Below are positions 13,889 to 15,107 of a DNA stretch of 64,000 nt, piece by piece (the first letter of the stretch is position 1; the number at the start of each line of letters is the position of its first letter). Below the pieces are notes generated by a model. It was not told where the DNA came from and ran no database searches. It was given only the letters and a program-made list of their open reading frames with translations. Location of the stretch: positions 62,001 through 126,000 of the forward strand of contig JAFTWX010000071.1 of the NCBI GenBank assembly GCA_017465095.1. The letters are read 5' to 3'. Position numbers and translations under genes: made by a program. Source of the DNA: Lachnospiraceae bacterium. Its GTDB lineage: Bacteria; Bacillota; Clostridia; Lachnospirales; Lachnospiraceae.

Positions 13889-13950
13889 TATCTTAAACAT
13901 TTCAAAGTATATTTCCTGATAATTTGTTTTATGAGAGATTATCCGTTGTT

Positions 13951-14016
13951 TTTGTAGGCATTTACATGCGCATTTGCTTATGTTCGCTTATATTTGCAGG
14001 AATTTACATACGCATT
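13951..14016. repeat. Direct repeat pair ahead of palindrome cluster B
   Basis: Two 24-nt copies, 13951-13974 (starting TTTGTAGGCATTTACATG) and 13993-14016 (starting TTTGCAGGAATTTACATA), differ at 4 positions and are 42 nt apart. The second runs into palindrome B1. A fainter relative (TTTGGGCGGTTTAGCATGTG) lies near 7426, ahead of cluster A. Confidence 0.6.
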
Positions 14017-14057
14017 CTCCCTAAATCTATGTATTTTGTCTTGTGGGGAGAAAAAAT
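14014..14057. repeat. 44-nt palindromic repeat, copy B1
   Basis: Left arm TTCTCCC (14015-14021) pairs perfectly with GGGAGAA; CCTAAAT follows the left arm as in A1 and A3. The whole 13827-14297 gap holds no gene, only the ppdK hairpin, a direct repeat and these palindromes. Confidence 0.72.
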
Positions 14058-14075
14058 AGCAATTTATTAAAAAGG

Positions 14076-14118
14076 TTTCTACCCAAGAATGTTATGAGAG
14101 CAACTTGGGGAGAGGAAA
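14076..14118. repeat. Palindromic repeat, copy B2 (43 nt)
   Basis: Left arm TTTCTACCCAAG, right arm CTTGGGGAGAGGAAA, with the inner CCCAAG/CTTGGG exactly paired. It starts 18 nt after B1. Confidence 0.65.
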
Positions 14119-14156
14119 AACACAAAACTGGTTTACATAAAACTGATACAAATCTT

Positions 14157-14200
14157 TTTTCTCTACCTAAAAAATGTTGTGGGGAAATATGGGGAGAAAA
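14157..14200. repeat. 44-nt palindromic repeat, copy B3
   Basis: Left arm TTTTCTCTACC, right arm ATGGGGAGAAAA. The pairing has one mismatch. An additional GTGGGGAAAT sits inside the loop. Confidence 0.65.
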
Positions 14201-14220
14201 GAAGTTCTAAAAGAGAGATA

Positions 14221-14264
14221 AAATCTCCCTATAATGTAAAGTTACTACTATATGGGGAGAAAAA
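14221..14264. repeat. 44-nt palindromic repeat, copy B4, next to the nuclease start
   Basis: Left arm TCTCCC, right arm GGGGAGA, 20 nt after B3. Its loop contains TATAAT (14230-14235), placed where a -10 for the following gene could lie, so this copy may double as promoter or operator. Confidence 0.65.
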
Positions 14265-14297
14265 CCAATTATGAAAAAATAAAGACAGGAGGTAAGT

Positions 14298-15107
14298 ATT
14301 ACGAGAAGAAAAGCAGAGCAATTAATAAAAGAAAAACAACAGCTTTTAAGCAGCTTGGAAAAGAAATTGCGTACTTTTCCGGAGGGGACACTGAAAATCA
14401 AAGAAAAACATGGAAAGATGTATTTCTATCGGCAAGTAAAAAAGGCAAAAGGAAGGAAAGAGATTTATATTAAAAGGCAAGATGTTGATGTTGCGCAGCA
14501 ACTGGCACAAAAAACATATTTACAAAAAGTCAGTAGAGTATTGGAGGAACAATTGCAGGCATTAAATATCTTTGCAAGCTCTTATAATGACACTGCTCTA
14601 GAGCAAATCTATGACGAACTTTCGCACGAAAGAAAACAATTAATAGAACCGCTTATGGGAAGCGCCAGGCAAAAGCTGAAAGAATGGAATGAGGAAACAT
14701 ACGAACCCTACAACGCCTACCCGGAATATAAAATTTACGAGACCGACAGAGGTGAGATGGTGCGCTCCAAATCCGAGGTGATTATAGCAAACCTGCTTTA
14801 CAGACATAGAAAAGACCTCGATTACAGGTATGAACGGCCCCTGAAATTGCGAGCAAAAAACGGCGAAGAAATCACCATACACCCTGACTTTACAATCATA
14901 AACAAGCACACCGGAAGAATTTACTATTACGAACATGCGGGAAAAATGGACGACCCCAAATATGCGACAGATTTTGTAAAAAAGATGGAGTTGTATGCGG
15001 CTAATAATATATGGCAGGGGGAAGAGTTGCTGGTCACTTACGAGGCAGCAGGAGCACCACTGAGCACAACATGCGTGAGAAAAATGGTGGATCGCCTTGC
15101 AGAATAG
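14298..15107 (+). CDS. PD-(D/E)XK-like nuclease family protein with probable ATT start
   Basis: The coding frame runs from 14283 (after a TAA at 14280) to 15107. No ATG, GTG or TTG occurs before a TTG at 14355, which has no ribosome binding site. A perfect AGGAGG (14287-14292) lies 5 nt before ATT at 14298, and the codons between (TRRKAEQLIKEKQQLLSSLE) read as a normal coiled N-terminus, so ATT is chosen, giving 269 residues. The C-terminal half has GEMVRSKSEVIIANLLYR, then IHPDFTIINKHTG, then IYYYEHAGKMDD, the E...D...ExH-type order of PD-(D/E)XK-like enzymes. It follows palindrome B4 by 33 nt. The substrate is unknown. Confidence 0.72.
   Translation: MTRRKAEQLIKEKQQLLSSLEKKLRTFPEGTLKIKEKHGKMYFYRQVKKAKGRKEIYIKRQDVDVAQQLAQKTYLQKVSRVLEEQLQALNIFASSYNDTALEQIYDELSHERKQLIEPLMGSARQKLKEWNEETYEPYNAYPEYKIYETDRGEMVRSKSEVIIANLLYRHRKDLDYRYERPLKLRAKNGEEITIHPDFTIINKHTGRIYYYEHAGKMDDPKYATDFVKKMELYAANNIWQGEELLVTYEAAGAPLSTTCVRKMVDRLAE

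Follow-up and report, generated by a model that had tools for sequence, protein, structure and literature searches.

The window, a 64,000-nucleotide stretch of a 2.5 Mb Lachnospiraceae-type assembly (G000), contains a frame at 14298-15107 that is a real gene without a usable ATG, GTG or TTG, which raises the question of where its translation begins. A first-pass annotation had described it as a PD-(D/E)XK-like gene with a non-canonical start as in infC, and had placed this start at an ATT codon. The non-canonical start was supported and turned out to be a trait of a whole gene family, while the choice of ATT was probably wrong and the adjacent ACG at 14301 was favoured. The features of the locus are listed in Table 1.

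Table 1 Features of the nuclease-like locus (positions in the window)
Feature	Position	Strand	Observation
Leader with four TGGGGAGAAAA copies (14044, 14106, 14190, 14253)	14015..14265	+	83% identical to the orthologue
Leader hairpin, arms 14224-14233 and 14251-14260	14224..14260	+	z -2.9; last of a TCTCCC...GGGGAGA inverted-repeat series
Mini-ORF ATG AAA AAA TAA	14271..14282	+	Same frame as the gene, 27 nt upstream of ATT; not conserved
Extended Shine-Dalgarno GACAGGAGG, core AGGAGG 14287-14292	14284..14292	+	9/9 bases the same in orthologue L002
ATT of the first-pass annotation, probably not the start	14298..14300	+	Spacing 5 nt; GAT in the orthologue
ACG, most likely start codon	14301..14303	+	8 nt from AGGAGG; kept in the orthologue, L107 and L110
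CDS of standalone nuclease-like protein, 268 aa	14301..15107	+	dN/dS 0.13 vs orthologue
N-terminal helix (structure model), residues 2-23, beginning right behind ACG	14304..14369	+	Coding-constrained between ACG and TTG 14355
TTG, first canonical codon, residue 19 counted from ACG	14355..14357	+	Without Shine-Dalgarno
PD-(D/E)XK nuclease-like domain	14709..15104	+	RSKSE helix (E at 14775), PDF (D at 14886), EH (E at 14931)

Start region of the window gene

We confirmed in the sequence that AGGAGG, followed by a T, stands 5 nt before ATT 14298 and that the first canonical codon in the frame is a TTG without a ribosome-binding site. The frame is closed upstream by the in-frame TAA at 14280 and stays open up to TAG 15105-15107. 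This TAA ends a mini-ORF that had been called out of frame and actually shares the frame of the gene. The matching stretch of the orthologue reads ATTAGAAAAAATAAAAG and the mini-ORF is absent there; being in frame and not conserved, it therefore has no supported role.

The nearest relative was found in a roe-deer-colon MAG at a syntenic locus behind ppdK (L002/L004), with 81% protein identity. Its start region is AGACAGGAGGTAAGC GAT ACG AGA AGA. The Shine-Dalgarno (SD) is thus fully conserved in L002 and the spacer behind it at 5/8 positions; GAT replaces the ATT of the window, and the next codon, ACG, is retained despite a dS of 0.86. The same ACG is conserved in L107, a 53%-identical relative, and in L110. 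The comparison of start codons thus spoke against ATT. Initiation at ATT 14298 rather than ACG 14301 in the window genome is unlikely: infC starts at ATT in the same genus and 10 family members use this codon, but all other near-cognate members have a spacing of 7-9 nt instead of 5 nt, and the orthologue has lost ATT while keeping ACG.

Canonical initiation at TTG 14355, or at a downstream ATG in the IY clade, appears very unlikely. TTG 14355 does occur in both orthologues, and several IY-clade members carry an ATG 4-5 codons downstream. However, the TTG has no SD, and codons 14304-14354 evolve as coding sequence (5 codon differences in 17 codons between ACG and TTG, 3 synonymous and 2 replacements, window vs orthologue) and form the first helix of the structure model, most of which would be removed by a start at TTG. 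In addition, the next in-frame ATG lies 32-189 codons away in the window gene and in 13 other near-cognate genes (L004, L013, L015, L025, L060, L086, L091, L099, L102, L108, L127, L133 and L144). From the coding constraint on the first helix, the helix model and the kept ACG, translation of the window gene is predicted to begin upstream of TTG 14355, with the ACG at 8 nt as the best candidate.

Predicted fold of the encoded protein

We infer from motifs and a structure model that the window protein is PD-(D/E)XK nuclease-like and would act as a nuclease. The acidic residues of the E...PD...E arrangement (E159, D196, E211) were invariant in the family alignment; EH.G stands in place of EXK, and an invariant lysine (K228) lies in the following helix. 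The RSKSE, PDF and EH motifs were kept in 29/29 near-cognate proteins tested. Modelled alone, the C-terminal domain reached a pLDDT of 86 with the alpha-beta-beta-beta-alpha-beta core fold present, and the closest solved folds were Bax1, TnsA, MunI and RecE, most with E between 0.001 and 0.1. A fold match from the full-length structure model was dropped, as that model was too poor. Searches with the window protein gave no match above cut-off in Pfam or NCBIfam, and a PDB sequence search gave no match.

The C-terminal ~130 aa matched the C-terminus of PADLOC PDC-S68 (E=1e-29); PDC-S68, a candidate defence system, is defined as a large multi-domain protein of ~1200 aa, in contrast to the 268 aa of the window protein. 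The C-terminal PD-(D/E)XK domains of PDC-S68 and of RecD/AAA helicases are homologous to that of the window family, in which no helicase is attached and the domain is preceded only by a coiled-coil/beta N-terminal domain. Phage helicases (L205-L212) share a homologous C-terminal nuclease domain; these are phage-derived large ATPase/helicase-like proteins carrying it as a C-terminal fusion.

A multi-copy family in Lachnospiraceae

The nuclease family is multi-copy in Lachnospiraceae, with 7 copies in G000. Relatives were scattered over Lachnospiraceae, in 63/397 sampled genomes at E<=1e-36 with the window protein as query and in 34/397 at E<=1e-60 with a second-clade query. At six G000 loci the neighbours, named by eye from their sequences, resembled chromosomal housekeeping genes and not a mobile element. 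Neither plasmids nor the viral-contig collection yielded a near-full-length relative, and among phage records the single match was partial and unannotated, spanning 76% of the query. At 28 class-level loci, about half of them from other families of the class, the start was ATG wherever it could be resolved. One G000 copy (recorded as both L036 and L083) has a deletion of ~40 codons, yet its ATT and catalytic motifs are still present.

Near-cognate starts across the family

Starts were called from the SD position in 128 evaluable family genes. A canonical start (ATG or TTG) was present in 79 of these, while 31 copies from 22 genomes had a strong SD without a canonical codon in range. At 7-9 nt, these 31 carried ACG (12), ATT (10), ATA (5) or ATC (4), and no other codon; L110 and L156, with an SD beyond the range of the scan, were assigned manually, and L095 was dropped as weak and unreliable. 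Without filtering, 22 family genes combined an SD match of ≥7 nt with the absence of a canonical codon in range; one of the four codons was found at 7-9 nt in 22/22 of them, compared to 8/22 at 4-6 nt, 3/22 at 10-12 nt and 0-3/22 beyond. By our own arithmetic, the chance of 22/22 is ~1e-10 even with 8/22 as the background.

When all stop-bounded frames of at least 200 codons in the fetched DNA were scanned blind, the signature was recovered, among genes with a strong SD, in 19/52 family genes, in infC and in 0/44 other genes (Fisher p=1e-6 for family vs other genes, the 44 being mostly flanks of family loci and not a random genome sample). Near-cognate genes had longer SD matches (median 7.5 vs 6, p=7e-6), an association that was not significant using the few independent contrasts alone, and less structure in their start regions (mean -3.5 vs -5.7 kcal/mol). 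From conservation, we infer near-cognate initiation in the family. Frameshifting from an out-of-frame ATG was also considered and rejected, as an other-frame start near the SD occurred only in L113 and in the weak L095. In several near-cognate genes (L127, L013, L015 and the window gene), an in-frame stop (TAA or TGA) was observed directly before the SD, at 0-6 nt.

infC begins at ATT in 12 genomes (the window genome and eleven relatives; L193-L204). In the genomes inspected closely this ATT lies 8-9 nt behind GGAGG, followed in most by AGC GAY/GAG TTA, and the spacing and codon class of the family's near-cognate starts equal those of infC in the 12 genomes. Because infC is arranged in this way, the same ribosomes would be expected to use AUU in the same geometry.

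Recurrent evolution of the start type

On a start-type tree of 126 rows, at least 14 changes between near-cognate and canonical starts were needed, with 8 independent changes on well-supported branches, and near-cognate starts occurred in at least 5 separate clades. Within clades the codon was swapped while its class was kept (L127 ATA/L133 ATC; L031 ATT/L013 ATC; L099 ATC/L101 ACG). In 23/30 genes the near-cognate codon lay no more than one codon from the ATG of the best ATG-starting relative. Overall, the near-cognate start is supported as a family-wide, recurrent trait, and since many canonical-start relatives exist, it is not essential to the nuclease family.

Near-cognate orthologue pairs were under purifying selection (dN/dS 0.13-0.30), and three G000-G002 pairs had an identical near-cognate codon at dS 0.49-0.86 (dN/dS 0.13-0.15). 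An alternative explanation is the loss of a start codon, either in a decaying pseudogene or through a sequencing error. Some family copies are indeed broken (L027 has an in-frame stop and L112 a likely frameshift), but 31 independent cases with one codon class and one spacing argue against it, as do the low dN/dS, the retained catalytic motif and the conserved SD. Both variants had been raised in the first-pass annotation, a misread base and a gene silenced by an ATG-to-ATT change; we consider them the least probable of the readings, the former in view of the signature in so many genes and the latter in view of the dN/dS of 0.13 across the whole window gene and its intact motif.

Upstream leader

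The leader was 83% conserved between the window and the orthologue, compared to 59% at the four-fold degenerate sites of the gene. Each TGGGGAGAAAA copy could pair with a TCTCCC-like arm upstream of it and so supply the 3' side of a hairpin. More than one GGGGAGA copy was found only in the window gene and its orthologue, the repeats thus being specific to this locus and not a family trait. They possibly represent a regulatory leader or a protein-binding array, and the leader may add a second layer of control. An Rfam search of the leader gave nothing credible, and a promoter scan stayed at chance level. The leader of orthologue L002 contains inserted tandem GGCATTCATGTGCGC-type units (alignment columns 212-265), of which the window has two diverged copies at 13946-14016; this repeat, located between ppdK and the nuclease gene, varies in length.

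Discussion

To our knowledge, conserved bacterial genes with near-cognate starts are known only singly (infC, pcnB, sigR, ccpN and cvfC1). The present family differs from each of them in a specific way. Like the family, infC (AUU/AUA/AUC) has a near-cognate start that a strong SD precedes by 8-9 nt; however, it is a single housekeeping gene under feedback control, whereas the family is accessory and multi-copy and mixes ACG, ATT, ATC, ATA and ATG. IF3 represses near-cognate start codons and infC is autoregulated by IF3 through its start codon, while in Streptomyces the GTC start of sigR is repressed by IF3 (PMC5472188). The sigR start lies behind an extended site, AGGAGGTG, an excess of the product is harmful, and GTC and GTT alternate within one codon class (PMC5472188); the nuclease family resembles it in these respects, its products being potentially harmful. 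In contrast to the family, sigR has another codon class, encodes another protein and is a single orthologous gene and not a trait of repeated origin; IF3 control has been tested experimentally for sigR and is proposed for the nuclease family by analogy. The S. aureus genes cvfC1 (AUU) and ccpN (AUA) resemble the family in having conserved near-cognate codons with an extended SD in Firmicutes, but no ACG was found in the S. aureus set, whose genes are neither nucleases nor paralogous (PMC13009471).

We consider it most likely, and on balance probable, that the family uses genuine near-cognate initiation, which limits the output of a potentially harmful nuclease and probably places it under IF3 control. 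A strong SD would position the ribosome at a near-cognate codon, in the window gene most likely ACG 14301, and the family would repeatedly have swapped ATG for IF3-discriminated codons (ACG, ATT, ATC, ATA) together with a lengthened SD. Such a weak start would keep synthesis of the nuclease low, and the combination of a strong SD with a weak codon would make codon discrimination, hence IF3, the controlling step. Little nuclease would be made when IF3 is plentiful relative to 30S subunits, and more when IF3 activity falls. Both the low yield and the IF3 dependence of the family genes are suggested by analogy, the latter following the logic of infC and sigR.

The main rival is a static throttle, in which the near-cognate codon lowers the expression of a costly nuclease without any regulatory link to IF3; we regard this as possible but clearly less probable. 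It is in line with S. aureus, where near-cognate starts with an extended SD gave ~10% of AUG expression and little condition dependence was seen for 2/3 near-cognate genes tested (PMC13009471). For E. coli pcnB, an AUU start is likewise described as limiting its translation (Binns and Masters 2002, as cited in PMC13009471); this inefficient start resembles those of the family, although pcnB is a single gene that acts in RNA polyadenylation. As an argument against a purely static throttle, the longest SD matches of the family would be unneeded, since a weak SD with ATG would suffice.

Extending the IF3-gated reading, we tentatively propose a nuclease regulon in Lachnospiraceae, a possibility that we would not put above the static throttle. 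Dispersed paralogues would have converged on near-cognate starts with an extended SD, and a fall in the ratio of IF3 to ribosomes, as in stress, growth arrest or phage take-over, would free several nucleases together, with ACG as a natural, conserved start within the regulon.

Overall, the finding of the first-pass annotation is real but was mis-assigned by one codon, and ACG is its most unusual element: if true, ACG would become a natural bacterial start codon. Gene finders limited to ATG, GTG and TTG likely mis-start or miss such genes. With its repeated origin among paralogues, the trait allows the reasons for the bacterial use of IF3-sensitive codons to be tested by comparison, and it suggests where to seek an IF3 regulon beyond IF3 itself.
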